Assembly: GCF_014196635.1 (NCBI RefSeq)
Contig: NZ_JACIEB010000002.1
Coordinates: 372,001 to 436,000 of the forward strand
Source: Sphingobium fontiphilum
GTDB lineage: Bacteria > Pseudomonadota > Alphaproteobacteria > Sphingomonadales > Sphingomonadaceae
Direction of reading: 5' to 3'
DNA: 64,000 nucleotides
The first letter of the stretch is position 1. Every line of letters starts with the position of its first letter. Both the position numbers and the translations under genes were made by a program. Positions 3,565-17,089 of the stretch are shown here, piece by piece. The notes below the pieces were generated by a model, which was given only the letters and a program-made list of their open reading frames with translations, did not search any database and had not been told where the DNA came from.

Positions 3565-4247
3565 TGGCGCAATTCAGGGAACTGACCGAAGCCGACCATG
3601 GCCGGGTGACGCGCGCAGTCGCCGCCGCCGAAGCGGGCACGGACGGCGAAATCGTCACCATCGTCACCCGCCGGTCCGACAGCTATCATGATGTCGGGCT
3701 GCATTGGGCGGTCGGCGTCACCTTCCTCGCCATGTCGGTCTTCGCCGCCTTCCCCGACTTTTATCGCGGCCTCATCCTGCAGGTGATGGGCGGGTGGGAC
3801 CATGCGTTGTCCGAACGCACGTTCCTGACGGTCCTGCTCTGCGCGCTGATCGTCAAATTTCTCGCTACCCGCTACATCCTCGCCATCATGCCGCTCCGCA
3901 TGGCGCTGACCCCGCGCGCGACCAAATCGCGGCGCGTGCGGCGGCGCGCCATCGCCCTGTTCCGCGCCATGGTGCAGGGGCGCACGCGGGCGAAGACGGG
4001 CGTGCTCATCTACCTTTCCCTCGACGAACATCGCGCCGAACTGGTCGCCGACGCCGCGATCAACGATCAGGTCGCGCCCGAAGTGTGGGGCGAGGCGATG
4101 GCGGCGCTGATCGACGGTGTGCGCGCGGGCGATCCGGCGCGCGGCATGGAGGATGCCGTCCAGCGCGTCGGCGCGGTGCTGGCCCGGCATTTCCCGCGCA
4201 GCGCCGACGACAGCAACGAACTCCCTGACCGGCTGATCGAATTATGA
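3564..4247 (+). CDS. TPM-domain membrane protein (second copy)
   Basis: A 227-residue protein whose ATG shares one base with the upstream stop; a GTG three bases earlier is also in frame. The N-terminus (MAQFRELTEADHGRVTRAVAAAE) starts the TPM domain directly, without a signal peptide. Two hydrophobic segments at about 47-68 (LHWAVGVTFLAMSVFAAF) and 87-110 interrupt it. The C-terminal half (GVLIYLSLDEHRAELVADAAI) carries the rest of the TPM fold, ending RLIEL. This inverted arrangement, with the domain split around membrane helices, differs from its neighbour and suggests that the two form a pair in one membrane complex. That complex is an inference. The stop overlaps the nudix gene start in ATGA. 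Confidence 0.85.
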   Translation: MAQFRELTEADHGRVTRAVAAAEAGTDGEIVTIVTRRSDSYHDVGLHWAVGVTFLAMSVFAAFPDFYRGLILQVMGGWDHALSERTFLTVLLCALIVKFLATRYILAIMPLRMALTPRATKSRRVRRRAIALFRAMVQGRTRAKTGVLIYLSLDEHRAELVADAAINDQVAPEVWGEAMAALIDGVRAGDPARGMEDAVQRVGAVLARHFPRSADDSNELPDRLIEL

Positions 4248-4774
4248 CCGAAGCTGAAGAAATCATGTGGCAGGGCCGCTTCATCACCGCGAAGCGCCGG
4301 GGCCGGTGGGAATATGTCGGTCGCGCGCGCGGCATCCGCGCCGCCGTGATCCTGGCGGTGGAGCAGGCGGCGGAAGGGCCGCATGTCATCCTGGTCGACC
4401 AGTATCGCGTGCCGCTCGGCCGCCGCTGCATCGAATTGCCAGCGGGCCTTGTCGGGGACGATGATGCCGATGAACCGGCCGCCATCGCCGCCGCCCGCGA
4501 GCTGGAGGAGGAAAGCGGCTATCGCGCCGGGCGGATGGAGGATCTGGGCGAATTTTTTTCCTCGCCCGGCATGGTGTCGGAGAGCTTCACCCTGTTTCGC
4601 GCCCATGAGCTGATCCGCGTCGGCGACGGCGGGGGCGTGGCGGGAGAGGACATCATCGTCCACCGCGTGCCGCTGGCGCGCCTCGAAGCGCAGATCGCCC
4701 ACTGGCGTAGCGAAGGCTATGCGATGGACGTGAAATTGCTCCTGTTGCTCGGCGCGGGCATCCTGCCCCGCTGA
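4244..4774 (+). CDS. Nudix hydrolase, ADP-ribose pyrophosphatase type
   Basis: A 176-residue nudix protein with a perfect nudix box near residues 71-93: G, five residues, E, seven residues, then REL, E, EE, S, G, Y. The front half (WEYVGRARGIRAAVILAVEQ) and the segment SPGMVSESFTLFRAHEL, which follows the box, resemble NudF-type ADP-sugar pyrophosphatases. That points to hydrolysis of ADP-ribose or another nucleoside-diphosphate sugar in the cytoplasm. Substrate choice inside the family cannot be read from sequence alone. The ATGA overlap with the preceding TPM gene makes it the fourth member of the lemA-TPM-TPM operon. Its stop lies 3 bases from the convergent DUF6456 gene. Confidence 0.88.
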   Translation: MTEAEEIMWQGRFITAKRRGRWEYVGRARGIRAAVILAVEQAAEGPHVILVDQYRVPLGRRCIELPAGLVGDDDADEPAAIAAARELEEESGYRAGRMEDLGEFFSSPGMVSESFTLFRAHELIRVGDGGGVAGEDIIVHRVPLARLEAQIAHWRSEGYAMDVKLLLLLGAGILPR

Positions 4775-4777
4775 TCG

Positions 4778-5251
4778 TCAGGACGGCACCTTATACCAGT
4801 CCGCCACCCGGTCGAGCGCCAGCGTCAGCACCAGCTTGCCCGCCCGCGTCGGCCAGCCCAGCGCCTTTTCCGCCGCCGCGAGTCCCTCCCCGGCGCAGGC
4901 GACCCGCCACAAAATGTCGGCCAGCCCCGGCCCCGCCGCCCGGATGGCGCCGTCGAACCGCTCCCGCGCCGCCATTTGCGACAGCGAAGGATCATGCGCC
5001 CGCGCCGCGTTCCGCCCGCCCCGCCCGGCCAGCGGCGCACCGTCCCAGCACATGGTGACGCGCGCGCCCAGCCCCGCCCGCTCCCAGTCGCGGCGCAGCG
5101 CGTCGCCCGCATGATAGTGACGGTCGCTGAGCAGCCCGCGCGCATGGAGCCAGCCCAGCGGCGATTCGCCGATATGGACGGACAGGCTCTGCGGCCGGCC
5201 ATCGGGGTCTTCGATCATCTGCTGGACATAGGCGTGGGGGCGTCGGACCAT
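4778..5251 (-). CDS. DUF6456 domain protein
   Basis: A 157-residue protein read from the ATG at 5251 (MVRRPHAYVQQMIEDPDG). Its main part matches what I know of the alphaproteobacterial DUF6456 domain: SPLGWLHARG near 35, DALRRDWERAGLGARVT near 53-70, then a loop, a helix AARERFDGAIRAAGPGLADI, and the closing helix GWPTRAGKLVLTLALDRVADWY. Function is unknown. The domain is found alone or next to helix-turn-helix regions, which suggests a link to transcriptional control, but nothing here proves DNA binding. A longer in-frame opening to 5392 would run through the promoter region shared with the divergent XRE gene and overlap that gene, so I rejected it. Confidence 0.75.
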   Translation of the reverse strand: MVRRPHAYVQQMIEDPDGRPQSLSVHIGESPLGWLHARGLLSDRHYHAGDALRRDWERAGLGARVTMCWDGAPLAGRGGRNAARAHDPSLSQMAARERFDGAIRAAGPGLADILWRVACAGEGLAAAEKALGWPTRAGKLVLTLALDRVADWYKVPS

Positions 5252-5322
5252 GGGCAAAACTCCTTCGCTGATGGAGGAAGGGAAGCCTTGCCATGGCCAT
5301 CCATCTGTAGGACAGGGTAAAC

Positions 5323-5335
5323 AACCAAATAGGTT
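5323..5335. promoter_or_regulatory. AACC-N5-GGTT inverted repeat before the XRE gene
   Basis: In the 95-base gap between the divergent DUF6456 and XRE genes, an AT-rich patch reads AACC AAATA GGTT, ending 11 bases before the XRE gene ATG. It is the most AT-rich stretch nearby and could be the -10 region and/or an autoregulatory operator for the XRE protein. The repeat arms are only 4 bases, so chance is a real possibility. Confidence 0.3.
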
Positions 5336-5346
5336 ATGAACGCCCC

Positions 5347-5910
5347 ATGATAACCCGAATCCGCGACGTCCGCCGGGCCAAAGGCCTGACATTGGAGGAG
5401 GTCGCCGCCCTGTGCGATCCGCCGACCACCGCCCAGACCATCGGGCGGCTGGAAACCGGCGTCCGCACCGTGTCGGTCAAATGGCTTAACCGTATCGCCG
5501 CCGCCCTGAATGTGCCCAGCGCCGATCTGGTCGACATGCCGGGGCAGGACCATATCGACGTCGCCGCGATCATCGGGCCGGAGGGCGCGCGCGCGCCGAC
5601 CCGCGCGCTCCGCTGGACGGCGCCCGTCGCTTCGGGCGCGATGATCGGCGTGGAGGTCGGCGCCAGCACCGGCGATTATCGCGCCGGGGATCAGCTCTGG
5701 TGCGAGCGACTGGCGCCCGAATCCTTTGGCGGCGCGCTCGACCGCGATGTGCTTGTCCCCCTCCCCGCCGGGCGATTCCTTTTCGGCCGCCTGATCGACC
5801 GGGCGAATGGGCGGCTCGCTATATTGCCACCCGACAGCGGCAGCCGCAGGCAGGTGATCGACGAACCGCCATGGATGGCGGTCGCCGCACGGCTCGTCCG
5901 TTCCCTGTGA
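5347..5910 (+). CDS. XRE-family regulator with S24/LexA-like C-terminal domain
   Basis: A 187-residue protein. Residues 1-60 form an XRE helix-turn-helix (MITRIRDVRRAKGLTLEEVA, then TTAQTIGRLETGVRTVSVKW). The helix pattern is complete, but the second helix has a longer than usual insertion, CDPPTTAQT. Residues 75-187 look like an S24 peptidase-type fold: a VEVGASTGDYRAGDQLWC segment where S24 proteins have a GDSM..GD motif, then FLFGRLI and a proline-rich ILPPDSG. The catalytic Ser-Lys pair of self-cleaving LexA relatives is not convincingly present, so I regard it as a non-cleaving sensor domain. It is divergent from the DUF6456 gene, and the two may form a regulator pair. Confidence 0.75.
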   Translation: MITRIRDVRRAKGLTLEEVAALCDPPTTAQTIGRLETGVRTVSVKWLNRIAAALNVPSADLVDMPGQDHIDVAAIIGPEGARAPTRALRWTAPVASGAMIGVEVGASTGDYRAGDQLWCERLAPESFGGALDRDVLVPLPAGRFLFGRLIDRANGRLAILPPDSGSRRQVIDEPPWMAVAARLVRSL

Positions 5911-5955
5911 CCGTGCGCTAACAATCGCGTAACCCCTGGCCTATAGGCAGCATTT

Positions 5956-7128
5956 ATGGCGCTGAACGTCCTCATGCTCTCCACCCTGTTCCCGGACATG
6001 AGCCGCCCCAATTTCGGCGTGTTCGTGGAACGGCAGGCGCGCGAACTGGCCAGCCGCGAAGGGGTGAGCGTCACCGTAGTCGCGCCTGTCGGCCTGCCGC
6101 CATGGCCGCTGTCGCGCGCGCCCCATTATGCCGCGCTGCGCGCCCTGCCCCGGCAGGAACAATGGAAAGACCTGTCCGTCCATCGCCCGCGCTTTCCCAT
6201 CATCCCCAAATTTGGCGGCCGCGCCAATGTGACGACCATGACCCGCGCCCTATTGCCGCTGGTCCGCCGCCTGCACCGGGAAACGCCGTTCGACGTCATC
6301 GACGCCAGCTTCTTCTTCCCCGACGGCCCGGTGGCGCAGCGATTGTCGAAGGCGCTGGGCATCCCCTATTCGGTGAAGGCGCGGGGGGCCGACATCCACT
6401 ATTGGGGCGAGCGCCGGGGCACACGCAGGCTTGTCAAGAAGGCCGCCGACGGCGCGGCCGGCCTGCTCGCCGTCTCCGAAGCCATGCGCCAGTCGATGAT
6501 CGCCATGGGCATCGACGGCGACAAGATCCGCGTCCATTATACCGGTGTCGACCTTGACCGCTTTCAGATCGCGGATCGCGACGAGGCCAAGGCGGCGCTG
6601 GGTTTTGCCGGGCGGCCGGTGATCCTGTCGGTGGGCGCGCTGATCCCGCGCAAGGGGCAGGAACTGCTGGTCCGCGCGCTGCCAGAACTGCCCGATGCGG
6701 TGCTGTTGCTGGCGGGACAGGGGCAGGATCGCACCACGCTGGAAAAGCTCTCGGTGGACCTCAAGGTGGAGGATCGGCTCGGCCTGCTCGGCGGGGTAGC
6801 GCATGGCGGCCTGCCCCGGCTGTTCGCCGCCGCCGATGTGATGGCGCTGCCCTCCGCGTCGGAGGGTCTGGCCAATGCCTGGGTGGAGGCGCTGGCCTGC
6901 GGCACGCCCATCGTCATCAGCGATGTCGGCGGCGCGCGCGAACTGGTCGACCGGCCGTTCGCGGGCCGGATCGTCGAACGCACGCCGCAGGCCATTGCAG
7001 AGGCGATTCGCGCCATCCTGGCCGACCCGCCGGACCGAAACGCGGTGCGCGAAACCGCGCTGCGCTTCACCTGGGCCGCCAATGGCGACACGCTGGTCGC
7101 CCATCTGCGCGCGATTGCGGGGGTTTAG
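5956..7128 (+). CDS. Glycosyltransferase family 4 protein
   Basis: A 390-residue GT-B glycosyltransferase. The N-terminal domain opens MALNVLMLSTLFPDMSRPNF, typical of GT4 enzymes, with a glycine-rich acceptor loop (NFGVFVERQARELASR). The C-terminal nucleotide-sugar domain has VGALIPRKGQELLVRALPEL near 233-252, FAAADVMALPSASEGLANAW near 295-314 and the E-x7-E element in EGLANAWVEA. It likely transfers a sugar from a nucleotide donor to a lipid- or polymer-linked acceptor at the cytoplasmic face. Donor and acceptor cannot be inferred. It is not physically joined to the capsule operon, but several similar enzymes occur within 25 kb. Its last three bases overlap the convergent oxidoreductase gene. 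Confidence 0.9.
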   Translation: MALNVLMLSTLFPDMSRPNFGVFVERQARELASREGVSVTVVAPVGLPPWPLSRAPHYAALRALPRQEQWKDLSVHRPRFPIIPKFGGRANVTTMTRALLPLVRRLHRETPFDVIDASFFFPDGPVAQRLSKALGIPYSVKARGADIHYWGERRGTRRLVKKAADGAAGLLAVSEAMRQSMIAMGIDGDKIRVHYTGVDLDRFQIADRDEAKAALGFAGRPVILSVGALIPRKGQELLVRALPELPDAVLLLAGQGQDRTTLEKLSVDLKVEDRLGLLGGVAHGGLPRLFAAADVMALPSASEGLANAWVEALACGTPIVISDVGGARELVDRPFAGRIVERTPQAIAEAIRAILADPPDRNAVRETALRFTWAANGDTLVAHLRAIAGV

Positions 7129-8786
7129 GCTTTCACGATGGACAGCCGGGCCCGGCCGTCGCCGGTCGGGAATTGGCCATGGTCGAACGGCACCTCGCCC
7201 CATCGCCAGGGCGTCAGCTCGTCATAGGCGGGGTTGGAAAGCGATCCGTGGCGCTTCAGGTTGAACAACCGCTCGCCATCGTTGCGATAGGCCGACAGGC
7301 GCGCATGTTCGCGATAAATGTCGACCGGCCGTTCGAACGTGAAACCATCCCACCACCCCATCGCCCGCGCGACGCGCGTCACCATCCACCAATGCGGGCG
7401 CGCCTGCCCCGTCCAGGGGAAAATCGCCCGATGGCGGCTGACCAGCCGGTCCGCATTGGTGGTCGTGCCGTCCCGCTCGCCCCAGGGAGCCGCGGGCAGC
7501 AGCACATGGGCAAGCGGCGCCGTCGCCGCGCCGCTCCATGCGGTCGACAGCACGACCAGCGGACAGGCGGTCAGCGCCGCGCGCCAGCGTTCGCCCAGCA
7601 CGGGATCGGCCACCGGATCGACCTCCATCAGCCAGATCGCCCTGATCCGGCCCGCCTCCAGCCCCTCCAGCATCCCGGCCATGTCCAGCCCCGGCCCCTG
7701 CGCCATGGTCGGCGATCCCCATAATCGCTGCACGACCGCCGCCGCCTGATCGCCAAAGCGATGATGGGCGGCCAGTTCGCCCGGCAGGCTGCCGACCTCC
7801 GACGCGCCCATGGCGTTGGCCGAACCGGCCAGCAGAAAAGGAGCCGCGCCCGGCTTGCCGATCCGTCCGGTCGCCAGATGCACGTTCAATATGGCCCGCG
7901 TCGCCGCGTCGCCCAGATCGTTCGCGAACAGGGTCAGCGCGCGCGGACTGGCGGCAAAGCCCTCATAATATTGCTTCACCTGCGCGGGCGACAGGTCGCA
8001 GGCGCGCGCCACCGACCAGATGTCGTGCCCGGTGCGGATATGGTCCCAGAAGCCCAGGGGCGCGGCGACATGATTGTCCAGATAGTCGGCATCGACCGCC
8101 CCCGCCTGATCGCAATGGGCGAGCAGGCCGTTCATCAGCATGGCGATGCGGTCCGGCCCGACCGGCAGGTGCGCGCCGCGCTCCGCCTCCGTGCCGGGGG
8201 GCATATGGAGATGCAGCCAGGCCAGCGCCATGCCCCGCTCCTCCCGCGCCGCCATGATCCGCCGGTGCAGCACCGGATAGGCGGCGGGCAGGTCGACCCC
8301 GGCGACGACGATCATGTCGGCCCGGTCGACGTCCTCATAGGTCGCAGGCACGACCATTTCGCCCAGCGCATCGCCATGCGCGCGTGCCGCGACCGCCCAG
8401 CCGCCCGCATCCATGTCGATATTGGCCCCGCCGATATAGCCCTTCATCAGCTTGTTGGCGGCGTAATAATCCTCGGTCAGCAGGCCGTCCGACAGGATGA
8501 AGCCGATGGCGTCGGCGCCATGGCGCGACGCCAGTCCCGACAGGCGGCGGGCGATATGGCCGGCGGCGCGATCCCAGTCGATCACATTGCCGCCCTTCCT
8601 GGGTTCCAGCAAGCGCCCTTCCAGATCCAGCTCGTCGCGAATGCCCGCGCCGCGATGGCACAGCCGGCCCTGATTCGCCGGATGGGTGCGATCGCCTTCG
8701 ATCAGGACATGGCGGTCGCCGTCCCGTATGGCGCGGATGCCGCAGCCGACAGCGCAATGGGGGCAAGTGGTGCGAACCGAATACAT
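7125..8786 (-). CDS. Short, Mo-site-degenerate molybdopterin oxidoreductase (nitrate reductase-like)
   Basis: A 553-residue relative of the assimilatory nitrate reductase catalytic subunit, read from the ATG at 8786. The N-terminal 4Fe-4S ligands are intact: C8, C11, C15 and C43 (CPHCAVGC, GRLC). Family segments are easy to follow: LTEDYYAANKLMKG (103-116), NAMGASEVGSLPGELAAHHRF (324-344), NADRLVSRHRAIFPWTGQAR (444-463) and REHARLSAYRNDGERLFNL (492-510). Three things are missing. W130 stands where the Mo-ligating cysteine is expected (NIDMDAGGWAV). The cofactor-binding DPRRT-type loop is replaced by LHLHMPP. The C-terminal molybdopterin dinucleotide-binding domain (about 130 residues or more) is absent; the protein ends at TGDGRARLSIVKA. 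No frameshift is visible, since the next gene is complete and convergent. It sits divergently beside modABC. I infer a protein that keeps the Fe-S cluster but may not bind Mo. Confidence 0.8.
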   Translation of the reverse strand: MYSVRTTCPHCAVGCGIRAIRDGDRHVLIEGDRTHPANQGRLCHRGAGIRDELDLEGRLLEPRKGGNVIDWDRAAGHIARRLSGLASRHGADAIGFILSDGLLTEDYYAANKLMKGYIGGANIDMDAGGWAVAARAHGDALGEMVVPATYEDVDRADMIVVAGVDLPAAYPVLHRRIMAAREERGMALAWLHLHMPPGTEAERGAHLPVGPDRIAMLMNGLLAHCDQAGAVDADYLDNHVAAPLGFWDHIRTGHDIWSVARACDLSPAQVKQYYEGFAASPRALTLFANDLGDAATRAILNVHLATGRIGKPGAAPFLLAGSANAMGASEVGSLPGELAAHHRFGDQAAAVVQRLWGSPTMAQGPGLDMAGMLEGLEAGRIRAIWLMEVDPVADPVLGERWRAALTACPLVVLSTAWSGAATAPLAHVLLPAAPWGERDGTTTNADRLVSRHRAIFPWTGQARPHWWMVTRVARAMGWWDGFTFERPVDIYREHARLSAYRNDGERLFNLKRHGSLSNPAYDELTPWRWGEVPFDHGQFPTGDGRARLSIVKA

Positions 8787-8920
8787 GCCCGACAGCCACC
8801 CTTTCCCTGATCGCTCCTGCCCGCGAGCCAGCGCAATGAACCAGCAAACGCGGCCTCTATCATGCTCCCGCCGCGCAGGTCGATAGCCAGCGCGGCTGCA
8901 CCGCGTGCCTGTGTCGCGCG

Positions 8921-8951
8921 CTTGTGCCGCCATGCCGCTTTGCGGCACAAG
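8921..8951 (+). promoter_or_regulatory. 10-bp perfect inverted repeat/hairpin over the modA ribosome-binding site
   Basis: CTTGTGCCGC at 8921-8930 and GCGGCACAAG at 8942-8951 are exact inverted copies with an 11-base spacer. The modA ATG follows at 8958. The likely Shine-Dalgarno AAGGA (8949-8953) lies partly inside the right arm. As RNA this is a strong stem that would hide the ribosome-binding site; as DNA it could be a repressor operator shared with the divergent oxidoreductase. It does not match the known ModE operator (TATATA-type arms). Confidence 0.6.
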
Positions 8952-8957
8952 GACGCC

Positions 8958-9719
8958 ATGGTCCGATTCCTTCGCCCGCTCCTCGCCCTGATGCTGTTTT
9001 TCGGCGCCACCGCCCATGCCGCCGACCGGGGGCCTCTGGTGCTGGCCGCAGCGTCCATGCAGGAGGCGCTGAACGCGGCGGCCGATGACTGGGCGGCGCG
9101 CGGCCATCCCCGGCCGCTGCTGTCCTTTGCGGGCTCGTCGGCGCTGGCGCGACAGATATTGGCGGGCTCCCCGGCCGATCTTTTCATTTCCGCCGATCAG
9201 ACATGGATGGACAGCGTCGAAAAGGCGGGCTTCGTGGCGCGCGGCAGCCGCGCGACATGGGCGGGCAACCGACTGGTCCTGATCGCCCCCGCCAAAAGCG
9301 CCGTTCGCCTGGCCATAGCCCCGCGCTTCCCGCTGGCCCGCGCGATTGGCGACGGACGGCTGGCGATGGCCGACCCCGACAGCGTGCCCGCGGGCCGTTA
9401 TGGCAAGGCCGCCCTGGCCCGGCTGGGCGTGTGGGGCGCAGTGGAGCCGCGCGTCGCCCGCGCCGACAATGTCCGCGCCGCCCTTGCCCTGGTCGAAAGC
9501 GGGGCGGCCCCGCTGGGCATCGTCTACGCCACCGATGCGCGCGCCTCGCGGCTCGTGCGTGTCGTCGCCCTTTTCCCTGCCGGCAGCCATCCGCCGATCC
9601 GCTATCCCATCGCCCGGCTGGCGCGCAGCACCCATGGCGATGCCGAGCCGTTTCGCCGGTTCCTGCTCTCCGCACGCGGCCGGGGGATCATCGCCCGCTA
9701 CGGCTTCACCGCGCCTTGA
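8958..9719 (+). CDS. modA: Molybdate ABC transporter periplasmic binding protein
   Basis: A 253-residue ModA. The signal peptide is MVRFLRPLLALMLFFGATAHA. The mature protein begins with the family signature LVLAAASMQEALN and continues LLSFAGSSALARQILAGSPADLFISAD, which forms the anion site (Ser of AAS, Ser of GSS). The later segment SGAAPLGIVYATDA is the second ligand loop. It captures molybdate or tungstate in the periplasm for ModB/ModC. I used the ATG at 8958, since the longer in-frame opening to 8862 lacks a signal at its start and would place the inverted repeat inside the gene. It is the first gene of a tight modABC operon, with modB starting 8 bases after its stop. Confidence 0.93.
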   Translation: MVRFLRPLLALMLFFGATAHAADRGPLVLAAASMQEALNAAADDWAARGHPRPLLSFAGSSALARQILAGSPADLFISADQTWMDSVEKAGFVARGSRATWAGNRLVLIAPAKSAVRLAIAPRFPLARAIGDGRLAMADPDSVPAGRYGKAALARLGVWGAVEPRVARADNVRAALALVESGAAPLGIVYATDARASRLVRVVALFPAGSHPPIRYPIARLARSTHGDAEPFRRFLLSARGRGIIARYGFTAP

Positions 9720-9727
9720 CCCTGCCG

Positions 9728-10423
9728 ATGCTGAGCGCCGACGAATGGAGCGTCATCGGCCTGTCGCTGAAAATCGGCCTGACCGCCGTGGCGGCGATGC
9801 TGCCCATATCGCTGGCGCTGGCCTATATATTGGCGCGCGGCCGCTTTCCGGGGCTACTGCTGCTCGACGCCCTCGTGCATCTGCCGCTGGTCGTGCCCCC
9901 GGTGGTCACCGGCTGGCTGCTGCTGCTGCTGTTCGGGGCCAGCGGGCCCGTTGGTCTGTGGCTGGAAAGCTGGTTCGGGGTCAGCGTGCTGTTCCGCTGG
10001 ACCGGGGCCGCCATCGCCGCCGCCATCATGGCCATGCCGCTGATGGTGCGCGCCATGCGCTTGTCGATCGAATCGGTCGACCGGCGGCTGGAGGACGCGG
10101 CGGCGACGCTGGGTGCAGGGCGCTGGCGGGTGTTCCGCACGATCACCCTGCCCCTGTCGCTGCCCGGCATCGCAGCCGCCATGGTGCTGGGCTTCGCCCG
10201 GTCGATCGGCGAATTCGGGGCCACCATCACTTTCGTATCCAACATTCCCGGCGAAACCCGGACCTTGCCCATAGCGATCTATGGCGCGCTGCAAATGCCG
10301 GGGGCCGAGGCGGAAGTGACGCGGCTGGCCATCATGTCGGTGCTGTTGTCGCTCGGCGCGTTGCTGGCGTCGGAACTGCTGGCGCGCCGCGCCGGCAAGG
10401 GGTGGCGCGGCCATGGGCTTTGA
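9728..10423 (+). CDS. modB: Molybdate ABC transporter permease
   Basis: A 231-residue permease starting MLSADEWSVIGLSLKIGLTA, with about five or six membrane segments. It has the cytoplasmic EAA-type loop that docks to ModC (LEDAAATLGAGRWRVFRTIT, near 122-141), followed by the usual LPLSLPGIAAAMVLGFARSI. Length is standard for ModB. The ATG at 9728 fits the family N-terminus; an upstream TTG at 9716 also lies in frame. It forms the membrane channel for molybdate. It overlaps modC by 11 bases, which makes translational coupling likely. Confidence 0.93.
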   Translation: MLSADEWSVIGLSLKIGLTAVAAMLPISLALAYILARGRFPGLLLLDALVHLPLVVPPVVTGWLLLLLFGASGPVGLWLESWFGVSVLFRWTGAAIAAAIMAMPLMVRAMRLSIESVDRRLEDAAATLGAGRWRVFRTITLPLSLPGIAAAMVLGFARSIGEFGATITFVSNIPGETRTLPIAIYGALQMPGAEAEVTRLAIMSVLLSLGALLASELLARRAGKGWRGHGL

Positions 10424-11030
10424 CATCGATGTGCGCAGACGACTGGGCGACCGCGCCATCGCCCTGCGGCTGACAGGCGGCCCGGGCGTTACGGCGCTGG
10501 TCGGGCCGTCGGGCGTGGGCAAGACCAGCATCCTCAACATGGTCGCCGGGCTGCTGCGGCCGGATGAGGGGCATATCGGCGTCGCGGGGACAACGCTGTT
10601 CGACGCCGCCCGCCGCATTGACCTGCCGCCGTCCCGTCGCCGCGCGGGCTATGTCTTTCAGGACGGGCGTCTCTTCCCTCATCTGCGCGTGCGCGCCAAC
10701 CTGATGTTCGGCGCTGGACGAAACGGCGGCAATATGGATTTTGACCGGATCGTCGCCATGCTGGGCATCGCGCATCTTCTCCACCGCTGGCCAGCCAGCC
10801 TGTCGGGCGGCGAGGCCCAGCGGGTGGCGATCGGCCGTGCGCTGCTGTCGTCCCCGCGCCTGCTGCTGATGGATGAACCGCTATCATCGGTCGACCCGGC
10901 CCGGCGCGAGGAGATATTGACGCTCATCGAGCGAGTGCGCGACGCCAGCCCTCTCCCCATCCTTTATGTGAGCCATGACCGCGCAGAGGTCGACCGGCTG
11001 GCGGACCATGTGGTGGAATTGACCGGCTGA
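10413..11030 (+). CDS. modC: Molybdate ABC transporter ATPase, short form without the Mop/TOBE domain
   Basis: A 205-residue ABC ATPase with Walker A GPSGVGKTS (about residues 31-39), the signature LSGGEAQR (129-136), Walker B LLLMDEP (about 149-155) and the H-loop histidine in YVSHDRAEV. Classical ModC is about 350 residues because a C-terminal molybdate-binding TOBE/Mop domain follows the ATPase. This protein ends right after the ATPase (LADHVVELTG), so molybdate feedback on transport through that domain is not expected. Short ModC proteins are known in several proteobacteria. It energises ModB from the cytoplasm. Operon order is modA-modB-modC, with an 11-base overlap to modB. Confidence 0.9.
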   Translation: MGFDIDVRRRLGDRAIALRLTGGPGVTALVGPSGVGKTSILNMVAGLLRPDEGHIGVAGTTLFDAARRIDLPPSRRRAGYVFQDGRLFPHLRVRANLMFGAGRNGGNMDFDRIVAMLGIAHLLHRWPASLSGGEAQRVAIGRALLSSPRLLLMDEPLSSVDPARREEILTLIERVRDASPLPILYVSHDRAEVDRLADHVVELTG

Positions 11031-11081
11031 CAGCGAAAATCCGTTGGACGGCCAGCGGCTTTTAGGCTTTGTCCCGATGTG

Positions 11082-11975
11082 ATGGATGACACGCCCCTGC
11101 CCCGCGAGGCCGTTCTGGTCGTCAACGCCCGGTCGCGCAGGGGAGAGGCGATGTTCAAGCGCGCGCGCGACGCGCTGGAGGCGGCGGGCGTGCGCCTGAT
11201 CGCCGCGCACGGGCTGCGCGACCCTTCCCATATGGCGCCTACAGTGCGCCGGTCCGTGCAGGCGGGCGCCCCCATGGTGATCGTGGGCGGCGGCGATGGA
11301 TCGCTGTCGGGGACGGTGGACGAACTGGTCGGCAGCGACTGCGTCTTCGCCGTCCTGCCGCTGGGCACCGCCAACAGCTTCGCCCGCACGCTGGGCCTGC
11401 CGCTTGACCTGGAGGCAGCGGTCGCCGCCATCGCCAACGGACGGCGGCGGCGTGTGGACCTGGGCGTCATCAACGGCGATTATTTCGTCAATTCCGCCTC
11501 CATCGGCCTGTCGCCGCTGATCGGCGCGACCGTCCCCCACGGCCTCAAACGCTATCTGGGGCGGCTGGGCTATCTGATCTGGGCGGTCCGTTGCTTCTTC
11601 AACCTGCGCCCCTTCCGCCTCGTCATCGACGACGGCAACGTCGAACACCGGCTTTGGTCAACCGAAGTACGCATCCTGAACGGCCGTTTCCACGGCGGCG
11701 TCGAATTGTCGGAAACAGCCGAAGTGGACAGCGGCCGGATCATGATTCAGGCGGTGACGGGGCGCAGCCTGATGCGGCTCTGCGCCGACTGGTACGCCAA
11801 ATTCTTCAAATTGCGCGACCGCGACGCCCATACGCAGGAATTTGTCGCCTCCGCCTTTCGCATCGACACCCGCCCGCGCCTTCGCATCTCCATCGACGGC
11901 GAAGTGCTGACGCGCACCCCCGCTGATGTGCGGATCGCCGCCGCTGCAATAGAGGTGGCGGTGGCGGCCGATTGA
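11082..11975 (+). CDS. Diacylglycerol/sphingosine kinase family lipid kinase (YegS-like)
   Basis: A 297-residue DAGK-catalytic-domain protein. The start region EAVLVVNARSRRG is the typical opening, and the nucleotide loop GGGDGSLSGTVDEL lies near residues 70-83. PLGTANSFARTLGLPLDLEAA near 107-127 is the PxGTxN(D/S)FA motif, and the C-terminal beta sandwich carries SIDGEVL. Such enzymes phosphorylate diacylglycerol, ceramide or related lipids at the membrane. A YegS-like lipid kinase could suit a sphingolipid-making genus, but the substrate is not determined by the sequence. A GTG three bases upstream is an alternative start. It lies 51 bases after modC and is convergent with the export lipoprotein gene. 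Confidence 0.88.
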   Translation: MDDTPLPREAVLVVNARSRRGEAMFKRARDALEAAGVRLIAAHGLRDPSHMAPTVRRSVQAGAPMVIVGGGDGSLSGTVDELVGSDCVFAVLPLGTANSFARTLGLPLDLEAAVAAIANGRRRRVDLGVINGDYFVNSASIGLSPLIGATVPHGLKRYLGRLGYLIWAVRCFFNLRPFRLVIDDGNVEHRLWSTEVRILNGRFHGGVELSETAEVDSGRIMIQAVTGRSLMRLCADWYAKFFKLRDRDAHTQEFVASAFRIDTRPRLRISIDGEVLTRTPADVRIAAAAIEVAVAAD

Positions 11976-11993
11976 GTCCGCCACCCGGCCGGA

Positions 11994-13205
11994 TCAGTTG
12001 TTCGCCCGGTTGACCCGATCCGCCAGGATCATGCCCTGAAGCACGGGCGAGAACAGCATGTTGATGACCTGCACCACCTGCCGCGTCTTGTTGAATCGCG
12101 CATTGGCGATATAGATCACGTCCTTGTCCCGCATCATGAACCGCTGCGCCAGGAAATAGCTGGACGGCTTGAGCAGGTTGATCCGATAGATGACCGGCCG
12201 TTCGCCATTGGGCGCGGTGGCATCAGGCACGAAGCGGAAAACGAAGACGCCGGTCGGGTCGGCCTCCTGCGAATTGGGTCCGCCCGCGCGCGCGACCGCA
12301 TCGGCCAGCGAGACATTCTCCGTTTCGAACGGCACTTCCGCGACCTTGCCGGCCGCGCCGAACACGGTGAAGGTGCGCTCCATATGCACGATGTCCAGCC
12401 GGTCGCCCGGCAACAATGGCAGGTCCGCGGCCGATCCCGGCGTGATCTGGTTGTAATAGGCTTCGGCGGTCTTGCCGTCGCGGGTGAAGCGCACCACCGC
12501 ATTCTGCCAACTGGCGGGCGATTTCACGCCCCCGGCGCCGGCAATCGCGTCGAGCAGCCGTTCCCGGCCCAGCGAAAGGCGCTGGCGGCCCGGATCGGCG
12601 ACCAGCCCCCCCACCAATATGGTGTTGGTCACATTTTCGCTGATGCTGACCAACGCCTGCGGCGCCTGCGACTTGCCGCGCAAACCGCGAATGACCTGCT
12701 GGCGCACGTCTTCGGTGGTGCGTCCCGCCGCCTTGATCCGGCCGATATAGGGCAGGGTGATGTAGCCCGCATCATCGACCACCACGCCACGCATCGCCTC
12801 CGTCTTGGCGGTCGGATCGAACACGCGCGTGTCGCCCTCCCCGATATTGGCCGATCCGCCGAACAGGGATACGCCGACTTCGAAGATGCTGACCGACAGC
12901 ACATCGCCCGGCCCCAGCAGGTCGACGCGGCCATCGCGCGCCAGCGCCTCCAGCCCGCCGGTCTGCATCAGCGCGGCGCGCTCCGACACGGGCACGGTGT
13001 CGGCGGTGACGTCGACCAGGGTGAATCCCATCTTGGCGACCTGTTCGCGCTCGCTGTTGATCACCTCATTGGCGGTCGGGCCGCTATTGGGCAGGCTGGC
13101 GCAGCCGCCCAACAGGGCGATGCCCGCCATCGCGGTCAGTCCAAGGGCGGGCTTCCGGTTCGAAAAACCCGCGGCAAAGCGCGAAAAGCCAAAGCTAGTC
13201 TTCAT
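11994..13205 (-). CDS. Polysaccharide export outer-membrane lipoprotein (Wza/KpsD type)
   Basis: A 403-residue protein with a lipoprotein signal whose cysteine is residue 35 (GIALLGGCASLPNSG). A poly-export domain follows (RVDLLGPGDVLSVSIFEVG near 93-111; DDAGYITLPYIGRIKAAGRT near 142-161), then two SLBB-type beta-grasp repeats (ILVGGLVADPGRQRLS and FTVFGAAGKVAEVPF). Wza and KpsD relatives form the periplasm-spanning outer-membrane channel for polysaccharide export. The start codon overlaps the stop of the upstream glycosyltransferase by four bases (ATGA), so it is the third gene of a GT-GT-export operon. It may supply the outer-membrane step for the kps genes 8-18 kb to the right. That link is an inference. 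Confidence 0.9.
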   Translation of the reverse strand: MKTSFGFSRFAAGFSNRKPALGLTAMAGIALLGGCASLPNSGPTANEVINSEREQVAKMGFTLVDVTADTVPVSERAALMQTGGLEALARDGRVDLLGPGDVLSVSIFEVGVSLFGGSANIGEGDTRVFDPTAKTEAMRGVVVDDAGYITLPYIGRIKAAGRTTEDVRQQVIRGLRGKSQAPQALVSISENVTNTILVGGLVADPGRQRLSLGRERLLDAIAGAGGVKSPASWQNAVVRFTRDGKTAEAYYNQITPGSAADLPLLPGDRLDIVHMERTFTVFGAAGKVAEVPFETENVSLADAVARAGGPNSQEADPTGVFVFRFVPDATAPNGERPVIYRINLLKPSSYFLAQRFMMRDKDVIYIANARFNKTRQVVQVINMLFSPVLQGMILADRVNRANN

Positions 13206-14536
13206 TTTCTGCCTTTTCCCTCAAGCACATGCCGATAATAGGCGTCGATCCGCTGTTCAAAGCGCGCCGCCGAGAATATGTCGGACCGGCTGCGGCCTAA
13301 TGCACCCAGGCTTTGACGCAAAGCGGAATCTCCATCCATGCGACGGATCGCGGCAGCCATTGCGTCGACATCATAGGGGTCGACCAGCAATGCGCCATCG
13401 CCCGCGACTTCGGGCAGAGAACTGACATTGGTGGTCATCACCGGCCGCCCCAGGGTCATCGCCTCCAGCACCGGCAGGCCAAAGCCTTCATAAAGCGAAG
13501 GGAAAAACACGCCCCGCGCGCCGTGCACCAGCCGCATCAGGGCCGCGCGCGGCAGATAGTCGACCCGGCGGATGCGCGACGCGCCCTTCAGCACCGTCCC
13601 CGCCCCGCCGCGCAGCAGCCGCAGTTCCGCCTCCGCCCGCCAGCCTTCGCGGCCGACGATCACCAGCGGCGTCTCGACCCCCGATTGCAGATAGGCTTCG
13701 ATCAGGCGACCGACATTCTTCTTGGGCTCGATAGCGCCAGCGAACAGGAAATAGCCGTCGCGCTCCAGATCGAAGATCGTGTCCAGCCATTGGGCGAGAT
13801 GCGCCTGATCCTCATCGGGCCGGGCGTCGGCCATGTCCGCCGCTTGATAGAGGTTGACGACCCGGTCCGGCGCCAGCCCGAACATGCGGGTGATATCGGC
13901 CGCCGAAGCCTCGGAAACCGTGCAGACGCCCGCCGCATTCTCGATCTGCCAGCGCAGCACATCGGCGTAATAGCGCTTATCCTCAAGGCTGGCATAGGGC
14001 ATGACCAGCGGCACAATGTCGTGCATCGTATAGATATTGGCCGATCCTTCCAGTTCGACCGGCACCGGATAGGTCCAGTGCATGATCGCGGGCGGATCGG
14101 GGATGCGCAGCCGCAGCGGGCGGCCATAGCGCCGGAAATGCTTGACCGCCGTGTCGAACAGGCCGCTGCGCGTGAACAGCCGGTCGGCGGGCGGCACGGC
14201 ATTGGCGAAATGGCTGGCGTTGACGCGTCCCTCGATCGGCACGGCCAGCGGCCGCCGCACCTTGGGCAACAACATCGCGCGGACCAACCGCCGCTTCATC
14301 GTCATGCGCGGCTTTTCTCCCAGCGCCAACGCATGGCCCAGCGCCGAATAAAATTGCGTCTCGCGCATTTCGGGCGGCGTCGAGGACGGCACGGACACGC
14401 CGTAAATCAGGTCGAGTCCATGGCCCAGACCCCGGATCGCCCGGCACAGCGCCCGGCCATAGCTGGCGACCCCGGTGCCGCCGGGCAGCGCCATATTATA
14501 GCCGTCAACGCCTATTGTCAGTCGGTTCGCCGTCAC
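13202..14536 (-). CDS. Glycosyltransferase family 4 protein
   Basis: A 444-residue GT-B enzyme. The N-terminal domain reads RLTIGVDGYNMALPGGTGVA, with the glycine loop for acceptor binding. The middle carries MHWTYPVPVELEGSANIYTM (about 150-169) and HDIVPLVMPYAS. The donor domain carries GAIEPKKNVGRLIEAY and FFPSLYEGFGLPVLEAM, with the E-x7-E pair. It shares the MHWTYP, IYTxHDxxPL and IEP(K/R)KN blocks with the neighbouring gene at 14533-15765, so the two are paralogues. Its role is sugar transfer in surface polysaccharide assembly at the cytoplasmic side of the inner membrane. It overlaps both neighbours by four bases, a fully coupled three-gene operon. Donor sugar is unknown. Confidence 0.9.
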   Translation of the reverse strand: MTANRLTIGVDGYNMALPGGTGVASYGRALCRAIRGLGHGLDLIYGVSVPSSTPPEMRETQFYSALGHALALGEKPRMTMKRRLVRAMLLPKVRRPLAVPIEGRVNASHFANAVPPADRLFTRSGLFDTAVKHFRRYGRPLRLRIPDPPAIMHWTYPVPVELEGSANIYTMHDIVPLVMPYASLEDKRYYADVLRWQIENAAGVCTVSEASAADITRMFGLAPDRVVNLYQAADMADARPDEDQAHLAQWLDTIFDLERDGYFLFAGAIEPKKNVGRLIEAYLQSGVETPLVIVGREGWRAEAELRLLRGGAGTVLKGASRIRRVDYLPRAALMRLVHGARGVFFPSLYEGFGLPVLEAMTLGRPVMTTNVSSLPEVAGDGALLVDPYDVDAMAAAIRRMDGDSALRQSLGALGRSRSDIFSAARFEQRIDAYYRHVLEGKGRK

Positions 14537-15765
14537 GCCCCTGCCATCGCCGATCGGGGATATTGCGCCACATCGGCATATATCCGTTCAAGCCTGTCAT
14601 AATAGGCGCGCGGGCCATAGTCGACCGCTTTGGCAAGCCCCGCCTGCCGCAATCGGGCGCACAGCGCGTCGTCTTGGTCGAGAGCGCCAATCGCAGTTGC
14701 GATCGCCCCCGCATCGGCCGGGTCGACCAGCAAGGCGGCATTCCCCGCCACCTCCGCCAGCGCGGGCAGGGCCGATGTCATCACCGGCACGCCCATGGTC
14801 ATGGCCTCCGCCACCGGCAGGCCGAAACCCTCCGCCAGCGACGGGAACAAAAGCGCCCTGGCCGCGCACATCTGCGCCAGCAACGCGGCCCGATCCAGAA
14901 AGGGCTTGAAGGTGACGCCCGGCGCATCGCCAATCGCGGCGCGCACCGCGTCCGCGCGCCAGCCATCCTCGCCCGCGATGACAAGGGCGCGGCGGCTCCC
15001 GCTCAGCCGATAGGCCTCCACCAGGCGGACCAGATTCTTGCGCGGCTCGATTGATCCGCAGAAGAAGAAGGGCGCGTCCGCTTCCGGCGGCGGCGCGGGC
15101 GTCAACCCCTCGTCCACCGCCTGATGACAGGCGACCACCAGTTCCGGCGCGCAGCCGGTTGCGGCAATCACCTCCCGCCGCACCGCTTGCGTCACGGTGA
15201 CGATCCGGTCGGCGCTGGCCGCGATCGCGCGAACCAGCCGGGCCAGCCGGTCGCCCTTCACCGGCGACAGATCCGGCGTCGTGAGCGGGATCAGATCGTG
15301 GATGGTGTAAATGTTGCGCCATCCCGCCATGCGCAGCGGCAGCGGGTAGGTCCAATGCATGATGCCCGGCGCTTCCCCCGTCCGCACCGGCATCAGGCGG
15401 CCGAGCAGCTTGAAGTGGAGATAGGCCTCGCGGAACAGGTCCGCCCCTTCCATCCGCCCGCGCCACGCCCCGGCCTGCGCGGTGCCCGGCTCGGCCAGCG
15501 CAGGGCGCGGCCAAGGGCGCAGCGCCTTCAGAAAACGGCGTGGGTCCGATCCGTGCCGATCCCCTTCGGGCAGGCGTGCGTCCAGCCGCCAAGGCGCATC
15601 GCCATGGGCGGCCAATGCGCGGACCAGCCGGTCGCCATAATGGGCAACCCCCGAACGGGGTTCATCAAGCAGCCGTCCATCGACGCAGATGGGCGGCAAT
15701 GGGGGTTTTCCGGCCTGCGGGTCGGGCGATCGCCCCTCGACTGGATAGACTGCGCCCGCCATCAT
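14533..15765 (-). CDS. Glycosyltransferase family 4 protein, paralogue of its neighbour
   Basis: A 410-residue GT-B enzyme starting MMAGAVYPVEGRSPDPQAG; the second Met is an equally good start. Key segments are ICVDGRLLDEPRSGVAHYGD (about 26-45), MHWTYPLPLRMAGWRNIYTI (about 136-155), GSIEPRKNLVRLVEAYRLSG (about 235-254) and LFPSLAEGFGLPVAEAMTMG with E-x7-E. The first gene of the GT-GT-export operon. Its parallel with the downstream glycosyltransferase shows a tandem duplication followed by divergence, so the two probably add successive sugars of one repeat or primer. The 46-base gap to the MFS gene holds no obvious terminator. Confidence 0.9.
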   Translation of the reverse strand: MMAGAVYPVEGRSPDPQAGKPPLPPICVDGRLLDEPRSGVAHYGDRLVRALAAHGDAPWRLDARLPEGDRHGSDPRRFLKALRPWPRPALAEPGTAQAGAWRGRMEGADLFREAYLHFKLLGRLMPVRTGEAPGIMHWTYPLPLRMAGWRNIYTIHDLIPLTTPDLSPVKGDRLARLVRAIAASADRIVTVTQAVRREVIAATGCAPELVVACHQAVDEGLTPAPPPEADAPFFFCGSIEPRKNLVRLVEAYRLSGSRRALVIAGEDGWRADAVRAAIGDAPGVTFKPFLDRAALLAQMCAARALLFPSLAEGFGLPVAEAMTMGVPVMTSALPALAEVAGNAALLVDPADAGAIATAIGALDQDDALCARLRQAGLAKAVDYGPRAYYDRLERIYADVAQYPRSAMAGA

Positions 15766-15811
15766 TCAGCCATAGCGTGGCCGCGCGCGCGGGGCAAAGT
15801 CGTTCGCGCCT

Positions 15812-17089
15812 TCAATCAATATCGCGCAGGTCGATGCCTTTTGTTTCATGCGCAAAGAACACCGCGATCACGCTCACCACCATGCCCATTGCGACATAGG
15901 CCGCGACCGGGGTGATCGAATGATAGAGCTGATATAGCGACAGCGCGATGATCGGCGCCAGCGATCCAGCCAGGATCGATGTCGCCTGATAGGCGATGGA
16001 CGCGCCCGAATAGCGCAACTGGGTCGGAAATAGCTCAGCGATGAAGGCGGCCTGCGGGCCATACATCGCGCCATGGGCGATCATCGCGACCGTGATCGCC
16101 AGCCCCACCAGCAGCGGGTCGGCGGTATCCAGCAAAGCGAAGAAGGCCAGGAACCAGGCCACCAGAAAGGCCGCGCCCGCGCCATAGACCCAACGGCGGC
16201 CCACCCGGTCGGAAAGCGCGGCGAACATCGGCATCGTCACCATTTCCAGCGCCGCGCCGATCAACACCGCGTTCAGCACCAGCGAACGGTCCCCACCCCT
16301 TATTTCGGTGAAATATGTCAGCGAAAAGGTGGTCGCGACATAATAACAGATATTCTCGCCAAAGCGCAGGCCGCCCCCGACCAGCAGCGCCCGCCCCTTG
16401 CGGCGCAGCACTTCGACCGCCGGGAAGGCATGGGCCTGTTCCGCCTCCTCGGCAAAGATGCGACTTTCTTCAACCGCCTGCCGCAGCCAGTAGCCAATCA
16501 GCACCAACGTGATCGACAGCAGAAAGGGGATACGCCATCCCCAGGCGAGAAAATCGGCATCGCTCAGCAAGGCGGACGACAGCGCGAACACCCCCGCCGC
16601 CAGCAAATTGCCGGCCGGCGCCCCGACCTGCGGCCAACTGGTCCAGAACCCACGCGATGCAGATGGCGCTTCCTCCGCCACGATCAGCACCGCCCCGCCC
16701 CATTCGCCGCCCACGGCAAAGCCCTGCACCAATCGCAACAGGATCAGCAAAGCGGGGGCCAGCGCCCCGACCTGATCATATGTGGGCAGCAGGCCGATGG
16801 CCGTGGTCGACAGGCCCATCATCAGCAGCGAGATCATCAGCAATGTCTTGCGACCGATCCGGTCGCCGAAATGACCAAAGACGATACCGCCCACCGGGCG
16901 CGCGAAAAAGCCCAGCGCATAGGTGGAAAAGGCGATCAACGTGCCGGTCAGCGGATCAAAAGCCGGGAAGAACAGCTTGTTGAACACCAGCGCGGCGGCG
17001 ACGCCATAGATGAAGAAATCGAACCATTCGATTGTGGTTCCGATCAGGCTGGCGCCTACAACCGTGCGCAACTGGCTCTGCGTCTTCAC
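15812..17089 (-). CDS. MFS transporter, metabolite:H+ symporter (MHS) type
   Basis: A 425-residue, twelve-helix transporter. The N-terminus has the MHS hallmark GTTIEWFDFFIYGVAAALVF. The cytoplasmic loop GHFGDRIGRKTLL (about 73-85) is the conserved MFS loop-2 motif, and LVQGFAVGGEWGGAVL marks helix 4. A second loop-like motif, ALSDRVGRRWVYG, appears between helices 8 and 9. Relatives carry organic acids such as alpha-ketoglutarate, citrate, proline/betaine or shikimate with protons. The substrate here cannot be inferred. The gene stands alone between the export operon and lpd, and no regulator is adjacent. Confidence 0.88.
   Translation of the reverse strand: MKTQSQLRTVVGASLIGTTIEWFDFFIYGVAAALVFNKLFFPAFDPLTGTLIAFSTYALGFFARPVGGIVFGHFGDRIGRKTLLMISLLMMGLSTTAIGLLPTYDQVGALAPALLILLRLVQGFAVGGEWGGAVLIVAEEAPSASRGFWTSWPQVGAPAGNLLAAGVFALSSALLSDADFLAWGWRIPFLLSITLVLIGYWLRQAVEESRIFAEEAEQAHAFPAVEVLRRKGRALLVGGGLRFGENICYYVATTFSLTYFTEIRGGDRSLVLNAVLIGAALEMVTMPMFAALSDRVGRRWVYGAGAAFLVAWFLAFFALLDTADPLLVGLAITVAMIAHGAMYGPQAAFIAELFPTQLRYSGASIAYQATSILAGSLAPIIALSLYQLYHSITPVAAYVAMGMVVSVIAVFFAHETKGIDLRDID

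Follow-up and report, generated by a model that had tools for sequence, protein, structure and literature searches.

Within the MopB (dimethyl sulfoxide reductase) superfamily, several proteins are described without the metal-pterin cofactor. Wells et al. 2023 (PMC10100899) outline three losses of the Mo/W-bis-pyranopterin guanine dinucleotide cofactor (Mo/W-bisPGD) in MopB, with Nqo3, FhcB and ActB lacking it, and PMC6303296 presents QrcB as another case devoid of the molybdenum cofactor (Moco). For StnC, PMC10482914 states that exchanging the [4Fe-4S] cysteines of an inactive FdhF-like domain blocks tetramer formation. Here, we describe a protein of this superfamily, assigned to it by fold and descent, that is related to the nitrate reductase NasA and encoded in a 64,000-nucleotide stretch of the Sphingobium fontiphilum genome (contig NZ_JACIEB010000002.1, positions 372,001 to 436,000; hereafter the window). 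The short NasA-like gene lies at 7125..8786 on the minus strand and encodes 553 amino acids that comprise the Fe4S4 and molybdopterin domains only, with no Mo ligand and no C-terminal dinucleotide-binding domain.

Alignment and domain scans indicate that the window protein lacks both the Mo-ligating Cys and the Molydop_binding domain (PF01568) of assimilatory nitrate reductases (NasA/NarB/NasC) and keeps the four-Cys [4Fe-4S] motif. A Pfam scan matched Molybdop_Fe4S4 (residues 3-51) and Molybdopterin (residues 68-474; PF00384, E 6e-35) and found no Molydop_binding in the protein, and neither Pfam nor NCBIfam placed any domain after the molybdopterin domain. The full NasA of the same genome, at 864 amino acids, continues with Molydop_binding and then a BFD [2Fe-2S] domain; the short forms stop at about residue 553 of this protein. 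The N-terminal [4Fe-4S] domain (residues 1-51; 8634..8786, minus strand) carries Cys 8, 11, 15 and 43. At the lost Mo-ligand site (codons 129-131, reading G, W, A; 8394..8402, minus strand), full NasA has NSRLC: the column that holds Cys in 30 of 30 full NasA holds G129 here, W130 falls one column later, and no Mo-ligating Cys occurs in the aligned segment. Where full NasA has its DPRRT loop, which aligns with H192-P196, the short gene reads H L H M P P (codons 192-197; 8196..8213, minus strand). An earlier note on this DNA, made from its letters and open reading frames, had named the kept cysteines, the replaced loop and the missing C-terminal domain, and all three hold. It had also put W130 at the Mo-Cys position; the absence of the Cys stands and the exact residue does not, a one-residue correction that leaves the point unchanged. 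A separately encoded C-terminal domain was rejected, as the five PF01568 matches in the source genome all lie on other contigs, each within a long open frame, and none is encoded on this contig. There is also no room for a lost end, as the note had argued: the convergent glycosyltransferase gene (5956..7128, plus strand) is complete and overlaps the end of the short gene by 4 bases.

The short NasA-like gene is a family and not one damaged gene. A profile built from 28 short forms (A1) was searched in 94 genomes of the genus, and candidates were fetched and read. This yielded 63 short forms (the window gene, 27 loci from a first fetch and 35 from a second) in 63 of the 94 genomes, a spread that is therefore not due to chance. 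The four Fe-S cysteines are present in 63 of 63 and the Mo-ligating Cys is absent from every one, so 62 additional members of the family back the combination of a lost Moco site and a kept Fe-S site proposed in the earlier note. All copies are complete except L107, whose row runs off the end of a contig. The 62 complete ones all have an open reading frame and end 1-19 residues (median 8) beyond the column of window L548, past which the 30 full NasA have 309-324 more residues. Two divergent short forms, L109 and L110, resembled full copies by score. Two other candidates were rejected: L111, from another genus, is a full NasA truncated where its contig stops, and L108, from G064, is a broken full NasA. 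The latter keeps its Mo site, but its frame closes prematurely to give 555 residues that finish in an unrelated tail; the short form of G064 is intact.

Beyond the genus, a 149-genome sample of the family revealed no short form at E <= 1e-120. At that threshold 44 genomes had a match, 41 of them from other genera, with open frames of at least 789 amino acids except for the contig-cut L111; the Mo site was read in 21 of these other-genus matches (20 plus L111). A plasmid search returned 221 matching records, and the 20 matches listed are, by annotation only, nitrate reductases, molybdopterin oxidoreductases or unannotated; the sole named genome-contig match, L038, is a full NasA with NSRLC. Among the open-access papers listed in literature searches, no title or abstract opening dealt with a NasA-derived Moco-less protein.

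To follow what was lost and kept, we defined near-invariant positions as columns at least 97% conserved in the 30 full NasA (155 columns over the shared part) and scored them in the 62 short forms as kept (90% or more) or lost (under 20%). The short forms keep 69 of these columns and lose 49. Lost positions include K45, N126-M131, S165, N166, W169, C170, D193, R195-T197, Q321, N389, N443 and S444, positions that presumably lie at the cofactor in this family. New constraint is also evident: 18 positions reach a conservation of 95% or more among short forms, yet fewer than half of full NasA share them, and nine of these positions (R512, H513, S517, P519, A520, E523, L524, T525 and W527) fall within residues 512-527. 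This segment is part of a C-terminal stretch (residues 505-535; 7182..7274, minus strand) with positions conserved among short forms and not in full NasA.

An AlphaFold2 model based on 61 sequences (56 short, 5 full) reached a mean predicted local distance difference test score (pLDDT) of 94.3 and a predicted template modelling score (pTM) of 0.94; an input of 28 sequences left the C-terminal stretch poorly modelled. The predicted fold is that of MopB and matches the periplasmic nitrate reductase NapA (2nap; Z 43.8, root-mean-square deviation 2.0, 542 residues). By this model, the remaining domains keep both sequence and predicted fold. Matches to StnC (8oh5_C, Z 34.1) and Nfn-ABC (9bov_A, Z 36.2), in both of which the alignment likewise runs out near the chain end, were followed by complex I chains (Z about 30). 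In complex I, NuoG has an N-terminal [2Fe-2S] domain and further Fe-S domains; the window protein has no further Pfam domains, and none of the seven window neighbours scanned is a nuo gene. The fold in common with StnC and Nfn-ABC would suit a structural subunit or scaffold, with the Moco-less fold and its cluster helping a complex to assemble, as in StnC. Other Moco-less MopB lineages outlined in PMC10100899, and QrcB as outlined in PMC6303296, likewise belong to complexes. The short forms, however, occupy three kinds of locus with no co-directional partner common to them, and we consider a scaffold a genuine possibility that is nonetheless on the unlikely side.

From the sequence, we infer that the short form does not bind bis-molybdopterin guanine dinucleotide and is not a nitrate reductase, and that it lacks Moco and is non-catalytic; it probably binds one [4Fe-4S] cluster. 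In NasA and NapA this cluster is the electron entry point, and the ligands kept in 63 of 63 copies would permit a stand-alone carrier that relays electrons onward from a donor. Lys45, which we take to be the link between the [4Fe-4S] cluster and the pterin, is near-invariant in full NasA, however, and survives in just 16% of short forms; the BFD [2Fe-2S] domain that full NasA carries is gone, and no conserved redox partner gene adjoins. Given the usual loss of Lys45 and the lack of a neighbouring redox partner gene, the odds of an electron carrier are lower than the earlier note implied, and we regard it as quite unlikely. A Mo or Moco store, or an insertion chaperone handing the cofactor to NasA or formate dehydrogenase, would be in keeping with a protein that resembles its client enzyme and usually adjoins mod genes. 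Yet the Mo Cys, DPRRT and other positions in presumed cofactor motifs are lost. The short gene also persists beside the broken NasA of G064 and, at the cut used, without full NasA in G018, G078, G002 (which has a longer, 32%-identical relative) and G093 (83% complete), and 24 genomes have full NasA without a short form, which together leave a store or chaperone highly improbable. Finally, the cluster could act directly on a substrate as an Fe-S-only catalyst. The abstract of a 2025 preprint (PMC12636705) reports three Salmonella MopB proteins in which catalysis depends on the nearby [4Fe-4S] cluster and not on the Moco metal; that abstract describes no proteins without the C-terminal domain, and the short form has no evident substrate site, so direct catalysis seems improbable.

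The simplest account of these sequences is a single origin by NasA duplication in an ancestor of part of the genus, because a single branch separates every short form examined from full NasA. A tree built from 62 short forms together with 30 full NasA supported this split at 99.2/100, the grouping of short forms with the NasA of G088 (L112) at 95.3/100, and a group of 60 short forms that leaves out L109 and L110 at 95.3/96; a smaller tree (28 + 9 rows) gave the same split at 100/99. Judged from this topology, which has no formal outgroup, any root placed within the remaining full rows leaves the short forms nested inside full NasA. Over the shared part, identity to NasA (in the source genome, G000:C4) is 42-44%. 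Parsimony on an rpoB tree placed one gain and four losses of the short gene. That tree holds 80 genomes, 14 of the 94 having been left out (8 without a full-length rpoB match and 6 near-copies: G005, G021, G029, G074, G085 and G110). Four losses might be expected of a decaying duplicate kept by chance. Against this, the ratio of non-synonymous to synonymous substitution rates (dN/dS) is 0.13-0.22 in 13 chosen close short-form pairs, similar to the 0.10-0.26 of 11 full NasA pairs, 97 columns are strictly invariant in an alignment of 28 short-form rows, and all 62 complete copies are open. These values indicate that short forms evolve under purifying selection; a decayed gene was rejected by dN/dS and conservation, and retention by mere chance is extremely improbable.

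The short gene lies divergently beside modABC, as the earlier note had stated. On the plus strand, modA (molybdate-binding protein, SBP_bac_11; 8958..9719), modB (permease, BPD_transp_1; 9728..10423) and modC (a 205-residue ATPase with no TOBE domain; 10413..11030) follow a 171-bp spacer (8787..8957) that separates the start of modA from that of the oppositely oriented short gene. Across the family, 49 of 63 short forms have modA directly next to them in divergent orientation; modB is within 3.1 kb as well in 43 of these, and in the remaining six it is not close (on another contig in five, contig end in one). In five related genomes (L046, L047, L048, L076, L080, L231), modA stands beside the short gene and modB on another contig; the one inspected, L231 (G008), has modB and modC without an adjoining modA. 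Many short-bearing genomes (L042 and others) have a HAD/phosphomannomutase-like gene between modB and modA, on the strand opposite to modABC. The glycosyltransferase gene forms the other flank of the insertion site. In four relatives (G034, G067, G069 and G006) it adjoins modA with no gene between, and truncation in situ at the mod locus was rejected given this empty site. No nitrite reductase gene is near, again as stated earlier: the matches to nitrite/sulphite reductase domains in this genome are ~148 kb away on the same contig and, on another contig, ~0.5 kb from the full NasA.

We searched 44 modA/short-gene spacers for perfect inverted repeats, with 5 of the 49 loci set aside as odd. The window has one at 8921-8951, with perfect 10-bp arms around an 11-nt spacer. 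It stops 6 nt short of modA and overlaps the likely ribosome site of that gene; the other 43 spacers contain none as long. The 8921-8951 region folds no better than shuffles (z -0.34), and positions 4000-16000 gave no Rfam match at the gathering threshold.

The preservation of the short form, usually beside molybdate-uptake genes, suggests a new non-enzymatic role, and we tentatively put forward a non-catalytic adaptor or regulator in Mo metabolism. The starting point is the copy left by the single NasA duplication favoured above. Gone from it are the segment with the Mo ligand, many positions invariant in NasA and everything C-terminal, the dinucleotide-binding and BFD domains included; the four Fe-S cysteines remain, as does the predicted fold of the other domains. 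Under this proposal, the state of the cluster (present or absent, oxidised or reduced), together with the newly constrained C-terminal stretch, would control binding to a partner in molybdenum metabolism, and the short form may thereby take over some of what a ModE-type regulator does in other members of the genus. With no recognised DNA-binding domain, the protein could control mod genes only indirectly.

The Mo-linked regulator suggested in the earlier note is weakly favoured through an exploratory association with the absence of ModE, which we treat as a lead and not a result. Among 82 modB-bearing genomes (58 short-bearing, 24 short-less; counts that ignore kinship), a ModE-like gene is absent from 23 of 58 short-bearing and 0 of 24 short-less genomes, and adjoins modB in 1 of 58 versus 15 of 24. 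Parsimony on the rpoB tree gave 10 ModE losses, eight on short-bearing branches (one modB-less) and the other two on short-less branches, both modB-less; at each of the four losses of the short gene, ModE was present. The source genome itself has no ModE match and no TOBE domain. TOBE-type sensors were rejected as a clue: these domains occur in just 4 of the 94 genus genomes, and an absence so general says nothing about the short form. A more specific version, in which a cofactor-stripped nitrate reductase replaces ModE as a putative Mo-status regulator, its Fe-S cluster sensing molybdoenzyme maturation or electron supply to set molybdate uptake, we hold to be unlikely.

Several points weigh against an adaptor or regulator in Mo metabolism. 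No conserved partner gene adjoins the short forms, Pfam and NCBIfam scans revealed no DNA-binding domain (and no helix-turn-helix in the window protein), and the 44 spacers contain no widely shared inverted repeat or operator, with only three pairs or trios of near relatives sharing one. The mod linkage claimed in the earlier note is real, but it is best read as largely synteny arising from one insertion between the glycosyltransferase and modA and then inherited, because four relatives that lack the gene there have the glycosyltransferase adjoining modA. Moreover, 14 of 63 short forms have no adjoining modA. Eleven of these 14 loci retain the glycosyltransferase or HAD gene as neighbour; of the other three, L039 adjoins a reductase gene, and L109 and L110 adjoin genes that, by their sequence starts only, are enoyl-CoA hydratase-like and dehydrogenase-like. 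Nor is the link obligatory, because five short-bearing genomes have no modB match (G103, 78% complete, and G005, G018, G024 and G086, 96-100% complete); G018 keeps its short form without modB and without full NasA. G006 takes different places in the gene tree and the rpoB tree, and its short form, L039, lies near the root of the gene tree; transfer or a second copy in G006 is therefore possible.

The ModE association carries reservations of its own. Comparison of dependent and independent models for the short gene and ModE gave a likelihood ratio of 11.1 in favour of the dependent one (4 degrees of freedom, p = 0.025), in a test picked after the data had been seen. It uses the tree of a single marker gene, in which inner branches are weak and the source genome (G000) is placed with a support of 27. 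The parsimony count of ModE losses requires two regains. ModE was called at 49 bits or more, none of the matches reaches the curated family cut-off of 98.5, and a 40-bit match in G032 was scored absent; modB matches of only 38% identity (G098, G105) were counted and a weaker one (G097) was excluded. Finally, where short-bearing genomes do have a ModE match, it is mostly located away from mod and may act on other targets.

Compared with known systems, the short form is closest in sequence to NasA, with which it has the Fe4S4 and molybdopterin domains and, by its 42-44% identity, common descent. NasA differs in having the Mo Cys, Molydop_binding, BFD [2Fe-2S] and an adjoining nitrite/sulphite reductase domain gene, none of which accompanies the short form. 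ModE is comparable by position: a ModE-like gene stands beside modB in 15 of 24 short-less genomes, and this place is nearly always empty of it in short-bearing ones. It is otherwise a small winged-helix-type protein (131 residues in G072) with no sequence relation to the short form. If the ModE association is true, the short form would represent a new route of molybdenum control. NuoG/Nqo3 likewise has a MopB fold without Mo/W-bisPGD, as outlined in PMC10100899, but is a fused complex I subunit related to formate dehydrogenases, whereas the short form is a separate NasA-derived gene. FhcB, ActB and QrcB are further MopB relatives without a Mo/W pterin cofactor (outlined in PMC10100899 and PMC6303296); unlike the short form, they are subunits of defined complexes, and the passages on them describe no NasA derivation. 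The short form would thus add a recent, independent loss of Mo/W-bisPGD, in a separate gene within one genus. With full-length sisters, an empty insertion site and several secondary losses all at hand, this repurposing of a redox enzyme is unusually open to experiment. By analogy, the nearest mechanistic precedent is StnC: StnC and Nfn-ABC contain an inactive FdhF-like MopB domain with a kept [4Fe-4S] cluster, which is assembly-essential in StnC as outlined in PMC10482914, but there the domain lies within the large subunit of a bifurcating complex, and here it stands as a separate protein.

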